Source: Linum tenue
Taxonomy: Eukaryota > Streptophyta > Magnoliopsida > Malpighiales > Linaceae
NCBI GenBank assembly: GCA_946122785.1
Contig: CAMGYJ010000002.1
Location: 22,232,492-22,296,491 of the forward strand
Direction: 5' to 3'
Length of the DNA stretch: 64,000 nt
Under the pieces are notes generated by a model. The model was not told where the DNA came from. It saw only the letters and a program-made list of their open reading frames with translations, and did no database searches. Both the position numbers and the translations under genes were made by a program. Positions 1,225 to 49,330 of the stretch are shown piece after piece. Position 1 is the first letter of the stretch. Each line of letters starts with the position of its first letter.

Positions 1225-1385
1225 TTACAACCTGGAGAGCAGCCAGGACTGAAAATTAAAGAAACGACTTGCAGTCGGGTACAAAGAGAGGGCCTTACGA
1301 GCCACTAAATGGGCTACCCTATTGCTACCCCGACCTACAAATCTAATACTAAACCCTGGGCAAACCGCCACATAGTGAATAATTT
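1225..1385 (-). pseudogene. LINE ORF2 C-terminus, end of the RNase H domain
   Basis: This carries the conserved RNase H tail, with the motif IRFVGRGSNRVAHLVA followed by the ORF2 stop. It is the 3' part of the domain found at 3591-4251 and is separated from it by the nested Mutator-like element. The element plus its 9-bp duplication is 2214 bp, a multiple of three, so both halves are in the same frame. Confidence 0.85.
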
Positions 1386-1470
1386 GGAAAAAATCCCACT
1401 GTACACACGTTATTAAAAAAAATTCCCAAAATACATAAGTTATAAAAAAAATTCCCAAAGTACACATGTT
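1386..1470. repeat. Mutator-like element, left terminal inverted repeat
   Basis: It matches the reverse complement of 3506-3590. Shared blocks include the terminal ggaaaaaatccca, A/T runs before ttcccaaa, and tacacatgtttggcat at the inner end. Confidence 0.85.
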
Positions 1471-1476
1471 TGGCAT

Positions 1477-1891
1477 TCACCGTTTTTGACAAACGCAGTG
1501 AAGGTAATCACCGCGTTTGATAAAAACGGTGAACATTTCACCGTTTTAAATAAAAACGGTGATGCCTTCACCGCGTTTAATAAAATGGGTGAAGGCTTCA
1601 CCGTTTTAAACAGAAACGGTGAAGACTTCACCGTTTTTATTAAACGCGGTGAAGGAGCTGACGTGGACAAACGCGGGGTATTCACCGCGTTAGACAAACA
1701 CGGTGAATACCCCGTGTTTGTTTACGTCAGCAATCCGGGCCAATTTGCTATCACCGTGGCCGTTGGATGCGGTGAGGCGCGGATCGTGGTTTTCTTCCCA
1801 CGATCCGACGCCTCACAACACGCCACGTCCCCTAGATATACACCGCGTTTGTTGACAGCGGTGAGTTCACCGCGTTTGACTAACGCGGTGA
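1477..1891. repeat. Left subterminal array of TCACCG-N13-CGGTGA dyads
   Basis: Ten 25-bp units read TCACCG, 13 variable bases, CGGTGA (two with one arm mismatch). They start at 1477, 1508, 1538, 1568, 1598, 1628, 1682, 1751, 1840 and 1867. The first six are spaced 30-31 bp apart, with a degraded unit near 1658. The arms are conserved while the spacer varies in sequence but never in length. A separate near-perfect hairpin lies at about 1773-1813. This looks like an array of protein-binding sites, possibly for transposase; that function is inferred. Confidence 0.85.
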
Positions 1892-2134
1892 AAGCCCTCC
1901 AATTGAATGCAGCGCAGGCTCCTCCCCCCTTCCCCTTTCACTTTCAACTCACCCCACAAACAATTCACTTCTTTCTCCCTCAATTTATCCGCTCTAGTCT
2001 CGTTCTAAGTATGCTCTGTGGTTGCGGCTAAGTCCGATCTTCCACATCAGAAAGAATTACTAGAGTTTGACCCTAAAGCCCCCGTCCCTTACAAACCTAA
2101 AATCGTCGAACCTCTGTCCGGCCTACGCCAAAAA

Positions 2135-3258
2135 ATGGACGAAGAGGCTCTTCGTGTAGGTTTTTGGTTTATGAATTTTTTTAATCGAAACAATTTGATT
2201 TTTTGTTTTTTTATCAAAACAATCTCTGATTTCATTACTTTTTTATAGATGGGTGCCGTGATATACGATCCTCGATTGTATATCCATTATGGCCCAAGGG
2301 ATGCGAGTCTCTTAACCGATCAAGAAGCTCATCGCTCCCGTGCTATTTGGGATAACTATCCGGTAATTTTTTGAGTATTCTTGCTTTATTTTATTATTTT
2401 CTAAGGTTTTATTTTGCTTTATTTAATCTAATAAATTGTTATTTTTCCTATTTGTTTTAGGAATCGCTTGTTCCCGTGGTTCATAAAGGGACCAATAACT
2501 TGCCCGCTTGGCATCCAAGGTTGGAGCCCTACATAGCGAGGACCGGTTTGGGAATGTTGCGCCATTTCTTGCGGATCGAGATCGACAACGATCTGCTTAC
2601 GGCAATGGCGGAACGATGGCGTCCCGAAACCCAAACATTCCACCTTCCGGAGGGGGAAATGACGATCACCCTCAAAGACGTGGCGATCCTCACCGGGCTT
2701 CCTATTTCTGGAGATGCAATCATTGGTTCCACGACCAAACCCGAAGGAGGTTGGGGGCCGCTCATACGTGATCGTTTGGGCTTCGACATGCCGACCACCA
2801 CACCAATTCAAGGACGGGGGCATCCACCGTTGAATGCGGGGCAAGTGTCGGTCCCGTGGCTGGTATCTCACATCCAGCAAGAGGTGGAAATCAATGACGA
2901 GACACCGGAAGAACAAGTCGAGCGCTACGCCCGCATCTACCTCATCGGTTTGGTGGGTGGATTTTTGTTCCCCGACAAGTCCAACCGGTGGATTCAAGGC
3001 ATATGGTTGCCATTGCTCACTGGTGACTGGGATGCAATTGGAGAGAAGAGTTGGGGATCGGCCGTGCTAGCGGGCGTATACCGGGAGCTGTGTACTTGCT
3101 CGAAGGTTGGGGCAAAGCAAGCTGGTGCTGCGATGTTCATCCTGCAACTGTGGGTATGGGAGCATCTACCGATGTTCGCACCTGCCGACCCACGTCCATA
3201 CCGGAGAAACGATGATGAACTCAACTTTCTGCAAAATCTCCCCTACGGTGTCAAGTAA
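2135..3258 (+). CDS. Plant mobile domain (PMD, MAIN-like) protein, transposon-borne
   Basis: A three-exon model: a short first exon from an ATG at 2135 (or further upstream; the donor near 2156-2160 is uncertain), exon 2 at 2249-2362, and exon 3 at 2461-3258. Exon 3 has the PMD hallmarks: PRLEPYIARTGLG, a WRPETQTFHLP block, LKDVAILTGLPISG, and a later LIGLVGGFLFPD segment. This family (PF10536) includes the host proteins MAIN and MAIL1 and many copies inside plant transposons; its biochemical role is poorly defined. The last exon either stops at TAA or is spliced at the GTAAGT overlapping it. The frame is intact and the start is unsure. Confidence 0.75.
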
Positions 3259-3353
3259 GTTTATTTCGTACTGAGCCCAATTTAATTTTGATTGTGTACT
3301 TAGCTAGATTTAAATTGAATTTATTCTGTACATAGCCCAATTTTATTCTGTAT

Positions 3354-3499
3354 TCACCGTTTCCAACAAACGCGGTGAATATATCACCGTTTTAGGTTAA
3401 AGCGGTGAATACGTCACCGTTTTGGTCTTAAACGGTGAAGTATTCACCGTCTTTGACAAACGCGGTGATAAACTTCACCGCTTTTGTCAAACACGGTGA
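3354..3499. repeat. Right subterminal array of TCACCG-N13-CGGTGA dyads
   Basis: Five perfect units start at 3354, 3384, 3414, 3444 and 3475, a 30-bp period. Each has the same 13-nt spacer length as the left array. The array directly precedes the right terminal inverted repeat. Confidence 0.87.
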
Positions 3500-3505
3500 T
3501 GCCCA

Positions 3506-3590
3506 AACATGTGTACTTTTGGAATTTTTTTTATAACTTATGTATTTTGGGAATTTTTTTTAAAAACTAGTGTACTTTGGGATTTTTTCC
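3506..3590. repeat. Mutator-like element, right terminal inverted repeat
   Basis: The reverse complement of the left repeat, ending gggattttttcc directly against the second copy of the 9-bp duplication. Confidence 0.85.
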
Positions 3591-4251
3591 GAATAATTTC
3601 AGCAAGAATAGCCCCAATCCGACTATCACTACTATCCGCCTGGTTGATTTTATCAATAACGACCTTGGCATCGCCCTCAAAACACACCTCCAAAATCCCC
3701 TGCGTCTGGCACCACATAATCGCTTCCCGGAGTACCAAGGCTTCAACTACCATGGGCTCATCAATACCCGGAAACTGAAAACCCCCAGCCATAAGGATCT
3801 CTCTAGATGGCGTCAAGAGAACAAATCCCCCCGCTGAATGAGACCCCTTCCTCGTAGCTCCATCCCACATGCACACCAGCCTACCAGCAGCCCCTACCGG
3901 CTCCGGCGGAGAAGTAGGAGTACCTGAGGTGCGAGACTGATCCACAGTGAGACCAGCCCACTCCTCATACTGCTGATTATACTGCCGCATCAGCGCAGGG
4001 AACCCGAACTGCTTGCCCTCAAAGACCCAGTTCCGAGAACGCCAGATTCGCCATAACACAGCAACAACTGCCATGAGAACGGATGGCTGGGTAATCAGAG
4101 CCATTAATCTCTTAAGAAACAGGGGAAAAGTGTGTTTGGGTAATCCTTCGCCCAGAGAAGCCAGCCCCGAATAATCCCAGAGCGCCCTAGCAACCGGACA
4201 GAAGAGGAAAAATGTTCCAGAGTTTCCGATTCCGCCCAGCAAACCGGACAC
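3591..4251 (-). pseudogene. LINE ORF2, RNase H domain (interrupted)
   Basis: The RNase H domain shows its acidic residues: D in WDGATRKG, E in VVEALVLREA, and D in FEGDAKVVIDKI. The domain breaks at AEII, where the nested Mutator-like element begins, and resumes at 1385. The frame differs from that of the upstream zf-RVT segment, so a frameshift lies around 4190-4250. Confidence 0.88.
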
Positions 4252-4760
4252 CTAGGTAGGACCGGGACATCCTTGGCAATGAGGGCTTCCGTCGTAGGAA
4301 GCAAGCGATTCAGGATTTGCCAAACAAACACATTCAACTTAGGGGGAAGATTAGCTTCCCATAACCTGATCCAACTGGCCTTATCCATCCAGCTAACCTC
4401 AGACCTCCAACGACCCTGTCTCCTATCAAGGGTAACAGCTAAATGATAGGCCGACTTCACAGTAAAAACACCCTCCGGAGTATAATGCCAAACTAATCTG
4501 TCCATAATCGGCAGCCGAGGAAGGGGGATTGTCTTAATAGCCGCACAAGTTGGTGGGTCAAACCATTGTCTCAACTTTTGGTCACACCATTGGCCTCCCT
4601 CTGGTCTAATCAATTCTGCCACCACCAGGTCTCCCTCCCTTGGTAGGATTCGAGGGTTATACCGAGGAGGATCCAGTTGTAGATGAGGTATCCAGTTCGA
4701 ATGTAGCAAGGGAGCAGACTTTCCATCCCCAATTTGCCAACGGAGTCCTGCCTCTAACAA
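4190..4760 (-). pseudogene. LINE ORF2, connector and zf-RVT segment
   Basis: A linker between reverse transcriptase and RNase H. It has the zf-RVT pattern: SWIRLWEANLPPKLNVFVWQ, then CPVCWAESETLEH with its Cys and His ligands. It is in a third frame relative to the flanking ORF2 pieces, so there is one frameshift at each end (near 4760 and near 4190-4250). These are disabling lesions independent of the nested insertion. Confidence 0.85.
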
Positions 4761-7528
4761 CTGACGGCCATACAGAATACTCTGTCACCCCCAAGAAGGA
4801 CGAGATCGCGCCGTTGCCGAGAGGAAGGACCCATTAGGAAAATACTTGCCCTTATAAACCTGGGCCAGAAGGGAGTGGGGATCTTGCAGGAGCCGCCAAC
4901 CAATCTTAGCCAACATCGCTTGGTTAAAATGCTCAAATCGGCGAAACCCCATTCCCTATCATGCTTACTCCGACACATGTTCCTCCAAGACATCCACCGG
5001 ATTCGAGGTTGCCCCTCCTCAGCCCCCCACCAGAACCGAGCCACATGTTTGTCTAGTAAGCGACAAAGAGAGAGGGGAAGCCGGAAACAGGACACCACAT
5101 GCAATGGCAAAGCCAAGGCAACAGATTTGATAAGCGTTTCCTTGGCCGCCCAGGACAACGTTCGTTGCTTCCACCCTTGGAGCCTCTCTAGCAGTTTCTC
5201 CTCCAAATATCTGAACGTTTCCATCTTAGACCGAGCAATGAGCGTAGGCAAGCCTAGGTATTTATCTTGAACCCCCACTGCCCCTACTCCCAGAATAGCA
5301 GCCAAGAATTCTTGATCTGGCAAAGCAATATTTCTACTAAAGCACACTGCTGATTTATCCAGGTTAACTCTCTGGCCACTGAGCTCCTCATACTCATTCA
5401 AAACCTCAATCAAATTTTCACACTCCTGCAGGGACCCACGCAGGAACAAGTACGAATCATCGGCGAAGAAAAGATGAGAGATCCGCGGGGCCCTAGGCGC
5501 AACCTTGACTCCACCAAGCTTCTTGTCAGCGATAGCTTTCCGCAGGAGCGCTGCAAACCCCTCCGTACAAAGTACAAACAAAAGGGGAGACAGAGGATCA
5601 CCCTGGCGAAGGCCTCTAGAGGGGGTGAAATATCCCGAGGGGGTACCATTCATTAGAACGGAGAAAGACGCAGACCGAAGACACTCCTGTATCCATCCCC
5701 GCCAGGTAGAGTTAAACCCCATTTTTTCCAAGACAGCAAGCAGAAAGGGCCATTCAACCCTATCATAGGCCTTTTCCATGTCAACCTTCAGAGCCATGAA
5801 GCCTTTCTTCCCACGCGTCTTGATTTTTAAATAGTGCATTAACTCATGCCCCAGGAGAATATTCTCAATGATTTGCCGATCCCGAATAAAAGCGTTTTGA
5901 CCCTCCGAGACAATCAAAGGAAGAAAATCCGCCAGTCTCTCGGCCATGATTTTAGTGATAATCTTATACACGAACTGGCACAAGCTGATTGGCCGCAATT
6001 GCCTCATATTCTCCACCGAATCGACTTTAGGAATCAAAGTGAGCCACGTATGATTGAAACTACGGAGCATTTTGCTCGTCTCAAAGAAAGAGCACACAGC
6101 TTCAACCACCGAAGTGCCCACAATATCCCAAAAGGCTTTGAAGAATTTCCCCGTAAAACCATCGGACCCAGGGGCCTGCTTCGAACCCATGCGAAAAACT
6201 GTTTTGCGAACCTCAGCAGGCAACACAACCGCCGTAAGGCTGTCATTCATTTCAGGGGTAACGGTGCAGTTTATGGGCAGGCCCGCCACTCTATCAGCCA
6301 TGTTCTCAACCTGGTTCTCTGAATTAAAGAGGTTTCGATAAAAATTGGTCGCAATTCCCGCTTTCCCGGGTTCATCTGTGATCCAATCGCCCTCATCATT
6401 ACGGAGACCAGCCACAAAATTCCTCTTACGGCGCGCCCGGGTCACCGTATGGAAGTAAGAGGTGTTCTTATCACCTTTTTTTAACCAGTGAACCCTAGAC
6501 TTTTGCTGCCAATACAGCTCCTCCGCCTCCCACTGTCTATTAAGCTCTCCTTCCATCGTCCGGACTGAATCCCAATCAATAGGATGGGACCGCTTGATAG
6601 TTTCAATTTCATGCTGAAGCGTGTTTATATTCCGGAGGGAGTTAGTGGTACCTGCCCTACTCCAATCATAAAGCAAGTGGCGGAGCTTCTTAAGGCGTTC
6701 CCAAAGGCGAAACATAGGCGTACCCTGGACCTCCTCCTGCCAGACATACTGAACCATCGCTCTAACCTCGGGATTATCCGCCCACCGAGCATCAAATCGA
6801 AAGAGAGGGCGGCAATTACGGGCATAAGGTTTGTCAGCAAGCAGGAGCGCCCTGTGATCAGAACCCTGATCAGTAAAATGTTTAACCAAAGTATCAGGAA
6901 AGTGATCGATCCACGATTGCGAACAGAGCGCTCTATCGAGACGGTCACGAATGCAAGCAGTACCCATCCTTTTGTTGGTCCAGGTAAACTGCTCCCCCTG
7001 ATACCCCGGGTCATGAAGCCCTAAGGTATGAATAAACTCACGCAAACTAGCAGACTGCGCAGCATTCCAGGGATTCCCTCCCTCTTTCTCACTTTCATGA
7101 AGAATCGTGTTAAAATCCCCAATGACAACAAACGGACAATGAAGGGTTGCACAAACAGCATTAAGATGGGCCAATTGGGAAGTCCTGGTAGTCGCATTGC
7201 AACTAATGTAAACACACACCACAACATAAACAAAATCTCCTTCATTAATTTGAACGCAAATACAAAAATTTGAATGATAAAACACCGAAGCCACAACTTC
7301 GGGGGACCAAGCAACAACAAGACCACCGGAAGCGTCAACCGCATCCACAAAGAAACAATTGGAAAGATCAAAAGATAAACCCCGCATACGGCGAGAGACA
7401 ACACGCCGGCTCGATCGTGTTTCCGAAAAAAACACGAGATCCGGTTTATTCGACCTAACTAGCCCTACAGCTGTTTGGAATGTGAGAGAAGGACCAATGC
7501 CTCTCACATTCCAGGCCAGAAGCTTCAT
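4754..7528 (-). CDS. LINE ORF2, AP-like endonuclease and reverse transcriptase
   Basis: A long open frame of 924 codons. Residues 1-230 form an endonuclease/exonuclease/phosphatase domain (MKLLAWNVRG start, SETR, VVIGDFN, GSDHRALL). The reverse transcriptase follows at about 440-720, with LIPK, LRPISLCQ, DMEKAYDRVEW, RGLRQGDPLSPLLF and the catalytic HLFFADDSYLF. The protein nicks target DNA and primes cDNA synthesis there. The ATG overlaps the ORF1 stop as ATGA. The catalytic motifs look intact, but a frameshift near 4760 cuts off the C-terminal domains. Confidence 0.93.
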   Translation of the reverse strand: MKLLAWNVRGIGPSLTFQTAVGLVRSNKPDLVFFSETRSSRRVVSRRMRGLSFDLSNCFFVDAVDASGGLVVAWSPEVVASVFYHSNFCICVQINEGDFVYVVVCVYISCNATTRTSQLAHLNAVCATLHCPFVVIGDFNTILHESEKEGGNPWNAAQSASLREFIHTLGLHDPGYQGEQFTWTNKRMGTACIRDRLDRALCSQSWIDHFPDTLVKHFTDQGSDHRALLLADKPYARNCRPLFRFDARWADNPEVRAMVQYVWQEEVQGTPMFRLWERLKKLRHLLYDWSRAGTTNSLRNINTLQHEIETIKRSHPIDWDSVRTMEGELNRQWEAEELYWQQKSRVHWLKKGDKNTSYFHTVTRARRKRNFVAGLRNDEGDWITDEPGKAGIATNFYRNLFNSENQVENMADRVAGLPINCTVTPEMNDSLTAVVLPAEVRKTVFRMGSKQAPGSDGFTGKFFKAFWDIVGTSVVEAVCSFFETSKMLRSFNHTWLTLIPKVDSVENMRQLRPISLCQFVYKIITKIMAERLADFLPLIVSEGQNAFIRDRQIIENILLGHELMHYLKIKTRGKKGFMALKVDMEKAYDRVEWPFLLAVLEKMGFNSTWRGWIQECLRSASFSVLMNGTPSGYFTPSRGLRQGDPLSPLLFVLCTEGFAALLRKAIADKKLGGVKVAPRAPRISHLFFADDSYLFLRGSLQECENLIEVLNEYEELSGQRVNLDKSAVCFSRNIALPDQEFLAAILGVGAVGVQDKYLGLPTLIARSKMETFRYLEEKLLERLQGWKQRTLSWAAKETLIKSVALALPLHVVSCFRLPLSLCRLLDKHVARFWWGAEEGQPRIRWMSWRNMCRSKHDREWGFADLSILTKRCWLRLVGGSCKIPTPFWPRFIRASIFLMGPSSRQRRDLVLLGGDRVFCMAVSC

Positions 7529-9674
7529 TTATCCGATTGGGGCCACTTTAGGCTGGCTTCCTCCACCTGTTCCAGGTTATCAGCAATCTCCACAAACAGC
7601 TTTTTGGGCGTGGGAGTATCCCCCAGCTCCCCCTCCACTTCCTCGATGGGTCTTTTGCGCGTCCCTACATCTGGGTTCACGAAATTTGAGCCATACTCAT
7701 CCAACTCCAACGTCTCATCCTGCATTGATCCCTTGACTTTTCCATTTGAATTTGCCTCTCCATCCTGGTCCTCCACGACAGGGGTCTTCACTGGGGTAAT
7801 GGTAAACCCAGCCTCAAAGGCAGCCACAACTTGGCCTACCCTTCCCTTCGTAGTAGCACATGACTCCCGAGGCTTTTTGGCTGGACCCCGTTTTTTGATC
7901 TCAAAACAGTGGGTTTCTTCCTCAGAGTCCGAGCCTGCCGAGACTAGGGCTCGCACCTCCTCAGTCTTTGGGCCAGACTTTCGGACCCCACTGGGTCAAC
8001 ATTGCCCATTCGACCTGTAAGGTCCAGTTCCTCCTCCCTTTCTTTCTGCACACCATCAGACGGGCCCGAGGCCTTTCGCAGTCTGCCCCCCGGCCCGCCT
8101 GGGCCTTCTGCTCCCCTCTGCGGCCCAGCCCCTTTTCTTGTATAGGGCCGCTTTCACCTGCTAGGTTAGGCCCGGGGCCACTTGGGCTAGAGAACTTCAC
8201 AGCCCGCTGCTCCCCTTTTCTACCACCCTTGACCTGGGTTTTTGCCTGCTGGGCCGGCTTCAAAGCCACCCCCCTGCCGAGACTTCCCTTCCCCACTGCC
8301 AGGGATCTTCTCCGCCTGCTTTTGCTTCGCAGGCCTAGGGACGGGAACTGGTTGAACGACGAACTCTTCCTCCGATTCGTCTTCAAGGATAATCCGCCGC
8401 CGATAGGCCGTCTTCAGGTCCTCCGCCCAACTGTCCCCCACTGGATCAGGCAGAGGGGATCCCGCCCGTTGTCGATCAGTTCAACGCGAGGTAGGAATCT
8501 TTTCCGCCGCCAGAGCAGCATTCGCCCCAATAGTTTTACGGGGAGGCTTTGAAAGGCGGGTCGCCTGCTGGGGCAGCTCATCCACCTCCATTGAACTCCC
8601 TCGCCCATCCTTCCGGGGTTTACCATGGCGACCACGGCAACCAATATTCAATTTAGGTGCTTTTGCCATTGGGAAGCGGATGGGGCTTCTACCATTAGAG
8701 TTCCCCGGCTCCGTCGTCAGGAACGGTCTTGTTGAGGTACCCATCCAGAGCGGGCTGGTCCCCACCGCAGCCGGGGTCTCCTTTGGCGGCTCCCTTCTCT
8801 CCCTCTGTCCAGCTCCGTTTTTCGGCTGATCCTTCATCACCTTCCCTGCACGAATATTATTATTGATCCAAACTGAATGCGAGTTTCGGCGAAACTGCTG
8901 GTCATCAGCTTCATCCTCAAATAGCTTCATCCCCATCTTCTTAGTGGACATGTGAGGACCATACTTCTCCTGTCTTGAAGGTGGATCATAAGAGCAGCCC
9001 TGTCGAAAGTGTCCCACACGTCCACAGTTATAGCAGAAACTTGGCAGGTGTTCGTACTTGAATCGGATCCAAAAACGCCCCGTCTCCACATTGTTGGCCA
9101 TAATTTGGGACCACAGTGGTTTAGAGAAATCCAGCACTGTTTTTACTTTGACGAATTTCTGGTTCGTGTCAGAGCAAGAGAAAACCCCCGCCTCAAGGAC
9201 ACGGCCAAGGGTGGCAGCAGCTATTTTCCTGCCAAAGTGCTGTGTACAGCAGTCTTCTTGTACGTCCCACATTTGGACGCGAAACGGCGCCACCGCCAGC
9301 TCCTCAAAGGTTCGGTGCGAGACGTGTTGGGTCCAAGCTCGAACATTCAGGATCCTATCATTAATGACCCATGGAGTACGCTGGAGCACCCATGTTTTGT
9401 CCGCTTCGGTAGGAAGGACGAACTCAAACAGCCCATAAGCTATCTGTTTTACGATGATTCGGCCAGCCCCCTGCCAAGGTCGGTTAATCGCGTCCCGAAG
9501 CTCAGCAACAGACATCGCATCCTCCGCAAACAGGCGGCCGATCAGAATCCTGGACCTGCATACTCGGGTCGATCGGACTTCTTCCAACGAGAATTCCACA
9601 ACCTGATCATTGGCTCCGAGCGCCATGGTGCCTAGCTGCAAAATAGGCAATCCCACTAAACCCCTATCACCCAT
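7525..9674 (-). pseudogene. LINE ORF1, DUF4283-like protein with CCHC zinc knuckle
   Basis: The start is likely the ATG at 9624-9626 (MALGANDQVVEF) or 9672-9674 in the same frame. The N-terminal 200 residues resemble DUF4283, the RRM-like domain of plant LINE ORF1. A CCHC knuckle follows (CYNCGRVGHFRQGC), then a low-complexity tail. A stop near 8481 and at least two frame changes (about 8390 and 7960) break the frame. The terminal segment, ending SLKWPQSDK, stops at TGA 7525-7527. ORF1 proteins coat the LINE RNA to form the transposition particle. Confidence 0.85.
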
Positions 9675-10205
9675 CGTGGAATAATGGAAGTTTGGAATCG
9701 ACCAGGGAAAGCAAGCATGCAAGCTAATTATACACAATAATGGAAAAGCTTTAGGCCAGGCCCCAGCCACAGGCTCTATGCAAAGGGTGATCCACTCACC
9801 TGGATTACTCCCACGCCTTACGATAATCGCACCACCTACCCAAGTAAGAGCTCCTTTATGTTTCTGTAGCAATGGAGACTTACTTTGGAGGCCATCCCTT
9901 AAATAGGAGTGTGATTCCGCGTCAACCACCCGAATTGGCTGGTGTACTTGGAGTGGGAGACTTTGGGAATTATCTAAACAAAACTGCTTTTTAGATAACC
10001 TCCCACAGTTGAGTATCCGTTGGAGAGGAGAATCGTAACCCCCGCCCCGCAAATTACGGGCTGCAGCACAGCCGTTGGGGATTTGATTTCGGGCGCTACG
10101 CCGTATCGGACGGGGCCGGCAGAAAAACGCCGGTCGGCCTGTCCACACCGGCCAGGCCTGGGGAACGTCGGTCAACACCAGACGCCCATGAAAAAGATCG
10201 AGAGA

Positions 10206-10433
10206 CCTCGCCCCGTCCCGGGGTCTGAGTCCTGTGGAGGTATGAAGGGGAAATGGGGGAGTGAAACTATCCCCCTTTCCCATCTCCTCTGGCGCTGGGA
10301 GGTAGAATCGCCACGAAGGCCTCGCCCCATCCCGGGGTCTGAGTCCTGTCGAGGTATGAAGGGGAGATGGGGAAGTGAAACTATCCCCCTCTTCCATCTC
10401 CTCTGGCGCTGGGAGGTAGAATCGCCACGAAAG
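10206..10433 (-). repeat. Tandem 114-bp duplication in the LINE 5' untranslated region
   Basis: Two head-to-tail copies, at 10206-10319 and 10320-10433, differ at only a few positions. They sit between the 5' end and ORF1. The period is a multiple of three and the region is GC-rich. Mammalian L1s carry repeated 5' promoter monomers in this position; a promoter role here is only an inference. Confidence 0.85.
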
Positions 10434-10817
10434 CTTCGGAGATCTCCGCAGCCGCTTCCATCGATGGCCACTTTGTGGTTTGTCCACCGCCAATTTCAGT
10501 CCTCTTTTACGATTGCACTGCTCCGAATCAGCGTCTCCGCCACGGCCGGGACGATTTTTCTTTTCCCGGCCGTCCTCCGTGTCACGAAACGCCACCGGGC
10601 TACGATGGGAGCTCGGTTTAATAACCAAGGCAGGCTGATTTGTGCTCCTTCGCGGGTACTGAAGCCCCTGGTTAGCTAGAGCTATTTCTAAAATCACTGC
10701 AAGAAAGCCATGGATGGTATTTCCAGCAAGTCGGCATAGCTGAAAGAAGCAAAGAACAGTCGAGCCTCCAAAATGGAGGAGAGAGGAGAGAGCTCTCCTC
10801 ATGGTTTTTTTTTTTAG

Positions 10818-10834
10818 GTTGTCTGTAGTGAGTC
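10818..10834. repeat. LINE target-site duplication, right copy
   Basis: An exact copy of 1154-1170 next to the LINE 5' end. It fixes the full extent of the insertion. Confidence 0.92.
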
Positions 10835-11324
10835 CATTTAGAAGAAAAAAAATATACATAGTAAAATAGTTTATGTCAACTTTTTTTTTTTATCATCCAT
10901 TATATAATCTCATATTTTGAAGAAATTTGGTAAATCAAAATATTTTAATAGTCGAAACTATCAAAAATATTACTTCGTGTATCAAACAATTATTCATGAT
11001 TTAATTTAATTGTTGGTTATTTAATGGTGAAATTATTGTTGTTGATATTGCATACATATACTTTAGATTTTGAGTGATATGCACTATTGTCATTTGAATA
11101 TAACTCATTACAAAATAAAATTGAGTATGTCAATAAACGATTTGTAAATCATACGTCCAATATGTGTAAAACCAATTTTTCTCAATTTGACGCACCTTAA
11201 TTTTTTATTCTCAATTAATTATTAAATCTAATTTACTAATTGTCCTCTAGATATCCCAGAAATGACTCTCTTCCTCTCCCTTCGCCTAGTTGAGAAGAAA
11301 CTCATCATCTATATGCTAATTGGT
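10835..11324. other. AT-rich intergenic stretch
   Basis: I see no gene or element termini here. It separates the LINE from an older LINE tail fragment. Confidence 0.5.
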
Positions 11325-48439: not shown

Positions 48440-49330
48440 TTGGAACGGATCAGATCAGTAATCTTAGGGAGCAGATCCGATGAGTAACCTTATAGTGAGT
48501 AACCCAATGCATAACCCAATAAGAATTTGCCATATCAGCGCCTCCTTCTCTCTCCTGAAAAAATTATTAATTTTCTTTCCCTTAATCTTTAACGGACGAT
48601 TTCTCACTCGTTTTAACTCGGAATTTAATTTTTTTTGCACAGTTAGATCAGATTAATTGTGCTCTTCAAAATGATATCCACTTTGATATTTTTTGGAACA
48701 AACAAAATTTGTCAGTTATTACCAGTCTATACCATATGGTATAAGTCAATACCATATGGTATTGACTGATATTAAATAACAACATACCATATGGTATGAA
48801 AAATACCAGCCAATATCATATGCTGTTATTTAATACCAGTCAATACCATATGGTATTAAATAACAACATATCATATGGTATGAAAAATACCACCTCATAC
48901 CAGAGTGGTATAGTATGGTATGGAGTTGGTAACGAGAGGATTGAAATTTTTTCCCCCAGAAAATTCTGAAATCCAATAGATCGTGATTAAATCGTTCTTT
49001 TTGTGCAAAAATTTTCGAAAATGACTAAACAAAGAAGGAGATACCATATGGTATGGAGTTGGTAACGAGAGGGATGCAATTTTTTTTTTTCTCAAAAAAT
49101 ATTGAAAATGGATATCATTTTGTAGAGCACAACGAACTCGTTCCATCTGTGCAAAAAAAAAATAATTTGAAATCCGAGTTAGAACGAAGAAGATATGATC
49201 CAATAAAGAAAACTAGGGAAAATAAATGTCTTTAATTCTCCACCCTTAGATCTGCAGTCACTTAAAAGAAGGGTCCAGATTTGGTTACTCATTGTTACTC
49301 ACCCTAATGTTACTTACCCTATCTTGAGCC
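48440..49330. mobile_element. Inverted-repeat element with internal palindrome array
   Basis: The left arm (gcacagttagatcagattaa, then gctcttcaaaatgatatcc) is mirrored by the right arm (ggatatcattttgtagagc, then ctgtgcaaaaaa). The outer blocks, with gtgagtaac and gtaatctta-type sequence, also pair. The arms exceed 200 bp with moderate divergence. No coding sequence is present. Ends and target duplication are not fixed. Confidence 0.55.
48735..49065. repeat. Array of ATACCATATGGTAT palindromes
   Basis: The perfect 14-bp palindrome, or near variants, recurs about eight times. It is separated by partly repeated spacers such as attaaataacaacat and gaaaaatacca. Confidence 0.85.

Follow-up and report, generated by a model that had tools for sequence, protein, structure and literature searches.

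TCACCG dyads of fixed geometry at the ends of a PMD-carrying Mutator-like element of Linum tenue, putative target sites of the element's own PMD protein

The 64,000-nucleotide stretch of Linum tenue DNA analysed here, called the window throughout, contains at 1386-3590 a non-autonomous Mutator-like element (MULE) with the 9-bp target-site duplication (TSD) GAATAATTT. Rows of the inverted pair TCACCG-N13-CGGTGA stand at both of its ends, and the question raised by this locus is what these dyads are for and which protein, if any, would read them. The answer favoured here, at a probability of about 0.5, is that they are the putative target of the family's own plant mobile domain (PMD) protein in a VANC-like anti-silencing system. 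What was observed directly comprises the sites with their fixed geometry, the constrained arms and the position within the element; in addition, the predicted fold of PMD matches that of VANC21. A preliminary description of the window had recognised a PMD-carrying Mutator-like element with arrays at both ends; terminal inverted repeats (TIRs), TSD, a PF10536 exon and dyads at each end bear this out, although the extent given for the element was too short.

Fifteen dyads, ten left and five right, were found in the window element exactly where they had been described. Twelve are exact in both arms and three (1477, 1568 and 1840) have one mismatch; the spacer is 13 bp in 15/15. When exact TCACCG...CGGTGA pairs were scanned inside the element at gaps of 0-42, 12/12 fell at gap 13. 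With up to two mismatches allowed, the 64-kb window gave 18 dyad matches against a mean of 1.37 and a maximum of 5 in 100 shuffles. Five dyads per end lie inside the 241-bp TIR; the left end has five more, in the interval separating the TIR from the PMD gene. Start-to-start steps are 31, 30, 30, 30, 30, 54, 69, 89 and 27 on the left and 30, 30, 30 and 31 on the right, so that the 30-31 bp period reported earlier applies to the first five left steps and to all right steps but not to the later left ones. At 10.5 bp per turn, 30 bp is 2.86 turns, and a common face of the DNA, also proposed earlier, is therefore approximate only, without exact phasing. The linkers separating the dyads vary (2, 5, 6, 29, 44 and 64 bp) while the spacer is constant, and the isolated dyads at 1682 and 1751 keep the 13-bp spacer without near neighbours; the conserved unit is thus the 25-bp dyad and not a 30-bp repeat.

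Each pattern was counted in the 692-Mb assembly of the host and set against a control count. The exact dyad with spacer 13 occurred 6,913 times (control 12). Other spacer lengths were tallied as two pooled ranges, not individually: 0-12 gave 348 (control 560), about 27 per length, and 14-40 gave 1,038 (control 699), about 38 per length. The spacer length of the dyad is fixed genome-wide, which settles a point for which the preliminary description had proposed such a count. Among the first 50 dyads listed of the 6,913, 47 were in nine loci with at least two dyads and 3 were isolated. The motif GGAAAAAATCCC, with which both ends of the window element start, was found 1,376 times (control 117); it is followed 70-90 bp downstream by TCACCG in 766/1,376 cases (control 0) and at that distance by TCACTG in 240/1,376 (control 0).

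Relatives of the element were taken from 28 stretches, twelve around listed dyads, thirteen taken from the odd-spacer listing and three around transposase matches. One of them, L021, is a two-gene element with PMD on the plus strand and a MuDR-type transposase on the minus strand, convergent. Its PMD, in two exons, matches PF10536 at positions 9-194 and 239-347, with a sub-threshold match to DUF7745; its transposase has PF03108, PF10551 and SWIM domains and also a DBD_Tnp_Mut domain. Ten dyads stand ahead of PMD and nine ahead of the transposase. The window element shares 88% identity with L021 over 2.0 kb on the left and 84% at the right end and, as judged by this alignment, is a deletion derivative of an L021-type element; no transposase was found in it by open frames, Pfam scan or comparison with L021. 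Two diverged relatives, L033 and L046, are full-length and have the same layout (PMD exons 64-80% and transposase parts 40-81% identical), and in L021, L033 and L046 alike the arrays lie upstream of both convergent genes. Pairing was examined in 23 of 155 PMD-exon matches (covering about profile positions 2-194) and 56 of 148 transposase matches: 11/23 PMD-exon matches had a transposase match no more than 7 kb away, convergent in every one of these pairs. PMD and transposase are accordingly on opposite strands and never fused in these three elements and in 11/11 listed pairs. The family is a PMD-carrying, MuDR-like two-gene MULE with a 9-bp TSD, long TIRs and, in relatives, a MULE/MuDR transposase.

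An exact TSD was found in L023, L024, L027, L033, L036, L042, L043 and L046 (9 bp) and in L047 (10 bp); that of L044 is imperfect, and none was found in L021, L022, L025 and L028. In 26 loci, selected for dyads or for this transposase, two or more dyads lay within 330 bp of 30/31 exact termini, the sole exception being the right end of L036, where the array begins some 540 bp from the terminus. In 21/31 ends the distance from terminus to first dyad is exactly 91 bp, and the next step is 31 bp in all 21. Copies without detectable PMD, transposase or both still carry arrays; L024 and L027, in which no gene was detected, have five dyads per end, and L028 and L022 two or three. Neither variable spacers in other copies nor ordinary tandem repeat DNA unrelated to element ends, the outcomes on which the preliminary description had staked itself, was found.

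Selection on the dyads was assessed from the positions that differ between copies, with dyads defined on the first sequence only. Between the left ends of L021 and L033 the arms differ at 6/120 positions, the spacers at 53/130 and other positions at 112/325, with no gap inside dyads. At the right ends the values are 12/108 for arms and 55/117 for spacers, with 63 gap columns in arm positions, which suggests that the alignment is locally wrong. Another four comparisons show this direction too (arm/spacer gaps: window-L021 0/30, window-L033 3/0, L021-L044 7/13, L021-L041 12/24). The window's own TIR pair, identical at 196/241 positions, differs at 2/60 in arms, 22/65 in spacers and 12/25 in linkers. 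The commonest arm change falls at CpG (TCACTG, CAGTGA). Half-sites are still TCACCG in 38/40 cases in L047 and in 18/40 in L046, so that the L046/L033 branch would read or tolerate a looser site. Because the arms are conserved while spacers and linkers diverge, and because the spacer length is fixed genome-wide, the dyads are read as putative recognition sites under selection on arms and geometry. The earlier proposal of a site array for a dimeric protein is supported to this extent, binding itself being presumed.

Several observations were made beside these. The outermost dyad of L046 is TCACTG-N13-CAGTGA at both ends. The transposase matches of many L046-like copies have the same or almost the same scores, at an identity of some 80%, which suggests a recently amplified subfamily. 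A 75-bp near-palindrome (1657-1731), centred on the dyad at 1682-1706, and a GTGAGGC...GCCTCAC hairpin (1771-1812) between array and PMD gene are visible by eye in the L021-L033 alignment. Neighbouring convergent PMD and MULE transposase matches at C7:17036343-17038482 and C8:16017823-16021616 seemingly represent a further PMD-MULE lineage, in which a single exon encodes PMD.

The candidate reader was approached through the predicted PMD models. The C-terminal half of the first model was not confident, and only its N-terminal half was interpreted. VANC21, solved with its DNA, was the only clear fold match in the PDB, matched over 294-550 at Foldseek E values of 9.8e-3 and 0.11; the element family thus encodes a protein with a predicted VANC fold. 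The preliminary description had left the reader as transposase or PMD, and this match tips the choice towards PMD, with the transposase as its main rival. PMD proteins are called enigmatic and of unknown function in a review (PMC8616336), and use of PMD by transposons against silencing has been speculated upon only (PMC5418596). A Pfam scan of the window PMD protein returned PF10536 only, and DUF1985 was not found. Over 88% of its length the window's PMD exon shows 99% identity with a Linum tenue protein. A homeobox chain returned by the PMD profile search of solved structures (E 0.082) was taken as chance.

According to the favoured reading the dyads would be an array, kept by selection, at which a DNA-binding protein recognises a pair of TCACCG half-sites lying about 19 bp from one another in inverted orientation; the simplest form of such a protein would be a dimer. 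Its likeliest identity would be the PMD protein made by full-length members of this Mutator-like family. In the manner of VANC, PMD would bind the non-coding ends of own-family copies ahead of both convergent genes and would keep these copies free of silencing or render them so; transposase and PMD could then be expressed, and copies could move, the window element and other non-autonomous ones among them. That PMD is a VANC-type sequence-specific DNA-binding domain, a dimer of which reads TCACCG-N13-CGGTGA arrays and lifts the silencing of its own copies, is put forward tentatively, as something possible rather than probable. A number of points weigh against PMD as the reader. The Foldseek E values are modest and identity to VANC21 is 7%; a sequence search of solved structures with PMD returned no relative; and a shared predicted fold shows no function. 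The host PMD proteins MAIN and MAIL1 are reported to promote silencing, not to oppose it. Sites located in TIRs are classically transposase sites. Arrays are carried by L022, L024, L027 and L028, with no PMD or transposase detected, and by L036 and L044, with a transposase and at most a PMD fragment, as would be expected if the transposase reads the dyads. Binding by the transposase would account equally well for the TIR position and for the persistence of arrays in gene-less copies.

The dyads may instead be multiple sites for the family's own MuDR-type transposase, the arrays assembling a transpososome at both ends; several transposase sites per end are known in other transposons. This is a serious possibility, if on balance a doubtful one. 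It agrees with dyads in the TIRs of a MULE with 9-bp TSD, the first at a set distance in most ends, with their retention in L024, L027, L028 and L022, with the DBD_Tnp_Mut domain of the family transposase and with the reported binding of MURA to a conserved TIR motif of about 32 bp (PMC3310237). The published MURA site is, however, one such motif and not a row of dyads; five window dyads and the inner ones at both L021 ends lie beyond the TIR, ahead of genes, where they are unneeded for end cutting, and the VANC21-like fold of PMD is left unexplained. That the dyads are promoter or enhancer elements through which a host transcription factor drives both convergent genes is improbable, even though arrays are upstream of both genes in the three full-length elements and MuDR TIRs hold promoters and cell-cycle enhancer motifs (PMC3310237). 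The geometry is unchanged in copies with no gene detected, and where looked for, in the first 50 dyads listed, the dyad is largely confined to the family (47 in nine element loci), which a host factor would not require. FHY3/FAR1 and ABI4 sites were considered as possible look-alikes of CACCGCG.

Two further explanations turn on the internal structure of the array. Its 30-31 bp repetition, and the fact that Tandem Repeats Finder calls it, could suggest neutral satellite-like DNA carried along by the element. This is hardly tenable, being contradicted by arms that differ far less than spacers and linkers and by a spacer that is fixed both genome-wide and in the isolated non-tandem units at 1682 and 1751. 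The spacer had also been described as varying freely, which does not hold: window spacers are rich in T at the left end and in A at the right end and are self-complementary at 53/90 positions against 28 +/- 4 in shuffles, and the half-site exceeds the 6 bp given earlier, extending to about TCACCGYKTTTR, so that the spacer is not free. As each unit is self-complementary and its spacer partly so, the palindromes might fold into hairpins, either as RNA or as single-stranded DNA. A set of 231 distinct dyads, drawn from 23 loci, showed symmetric complementarity above shuffles at 6/12 position pairs, the observed count being reached by 0 to 45 of 1,000 shuffles; the excess is small (e.g., 157 vs 140 expected), and relatedness alone could produce it. 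Partner half-sites within window units are no more alike than in random pairing (p 0.38), and this lack of co-variation favours double-stranded recognition. Hairpins would need no fixed 13-nt loop, and they are a very improbable explanation.

Binding by PMD, if true, would supply an element-encoded PMD with a predicted target site and would suggest that MAIN and MAIL1 act by reading DNA too. With a candidate site of constant 25-bp form that occurs naturally in thousands of copies, and with the fold link to DNA-bound VANC21, PMD function becomes open to a direct binding experiment. Should PMD not be the reader, the array would still stand out for its regularity as a platform recognised by a MULE transposase.

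Table 1. Coordinates of the window element and its parts (window positions).
Feature	Position	Strand	Remarks
Left TSD GAATAATTT	1377..1385		Flank match; joined flanks restore LINE frame
Left TIR, 241 bp	1386..1626	+	Three AT-rich repeats of 29-30 bp starting GGAAAAAATCCC (about 85 bp), then five dyads
Dyad L1	1477..1501		One mismatch, CAGTGA
Dyad L2	1508..1532		Dyad scan
Dyad L3	1538..1562		Dyad scan
Dyad L4	1568..1592		One mismatch
Dyad L5	1598..1622		Innermost left dyad within TIR
Dyad L6	1628..1652		Directly past inner TIR end, outside TIR
Dyad L7	1682..1706		Central in 75-bp palindrome 1657-1731
Dyad L8	1751..1775		Dyad scan
Dyad L9	1840..1864		One mismatch
Dyad L10	1867..1891		Dyad scan
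N-terminal PMD-gene exon (MGAVIYDPRLYIHYGPRD...)	2250..2361	+	Boundaries by eye
PMD exon, 265-aa open frame	2461..3258	+	PF10536 positions 5-194 of 347, E 3e-43; C-terminal domain part absent
Remnant downstream of PMD exon	3259..3349	+	Deletion junction vs full-length L021 near 3343-3350
Right TIR	3350..3590	-	Pairs with left TIR; likewise three AT-rich repeats, then five dyads
Dyad R5	3354..3378		Dyad scan
Dyad R4	3384..3408		Dyad scan
Dyad R3	3414..3438		Dyad scan
Dyad R2	3444..3468		Dyad scan
Dyad R1	3475..3499		Dyad scan
Right TSD GAATAATTT	3591..3599		Flank match

The element is inserted in the RNase H part of a long interspersed nuclear element (LINE), and joining the flanks restores the frame (...ILAEIIHYVAV...). 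The host LINE occupies window 1225-10889 on the minus strand and has an open reading frame (ORF) with DUF4283 and a zinc knuckle, an endonuclease-reverse transcriptase ORF at 4754-7528 and the RNase H ORF split by the window element. A 114-bp unit present twice at 10206-10438 (93% matches) overlaps the open frame holding the first ORF of the LINE. At 48729-49054, within an AT-rich repeat region, the 14-bp palindrome ATACCATATGGTAT occurs six times, five times exactly and once with one mismatch, where 0.15 copies are expected with up to two mismatches; this is possibly another element with palindromic sites.

Among known systems the nearest to the favoured reading is VANDAL/VANC of Arabidopsis (VANC21, VANC6), in which the protein is likewise transposon-encoded; PMD is predicted to fold like VANC21, and a repeated short motif, here a putative target, stands in non-coding regions in both. 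The VANC21 motif is a 9-mer, YAGTATTAY, whereas that of the flax element is a 25-bp dyad of fixed geometry. VANDAL TIRs are described as degenerate (PMC10398659), whereas the flax element has TIRs of 241 bp; VANC carries DUF1985/DUF287 and the flax protein PF10536, and anti-silencing has been demonstrated for VANC only. PMD-C in MULEs of grasses and Amborella (Ikeda et al. 2017, PMC5418596) also lies inside a Mutator-like element, with an anti-silencing role speculated there. In those elements PMD is fused to the transposase, whereas the flax PMD, in a eudicot, is a separate convergent gene; cis sites are not mentioned in the available parts of that paper. MAIN and MAIL1 have the Pfam domain in common with the flax PMD but are host genes that promote silencing. 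The DOWN motif (CATGCAGTTT, MORC1 promoter) has been linked to them and hypothesised to be recognised by their complex; considered as a relative of the dyad, it bears no resemblance to it.

The array itself was also sought elsewhere. The translated array gave no match in the protein database, hence no arrays of other species were reached, and among the papers listed in a literature search with the array letters only unrelated ones appeared. Three bacterial and two viral stretches with two neighbouring dyads were, by eye, short coding-type or other repeats or chance, not plant elements. The transposase protein relatives found were from Linum apart from one contig (9 matches), and no PMD annotation was found among them, the candidates being limited by length. 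No Mutator-like family with this layout was found described in the portions of the open-access literature that were available. The maize element MuDR has two convergent genes, TIRs, a 9-bp TSD and a MuDR-type transposase domain in common with the flax family; its second gene is mudrB, whereas that of the flax family is PMD. The MURA site of MuDR, moreover, is a motif of about 32 bp where the flax element has 25-bp dyads, and in MULEs with multiple tandem TIRs, which likewise have repeated units in their ends, it is whole TIRs that are duplicated and not 25-bp dyads (PMC3310237).
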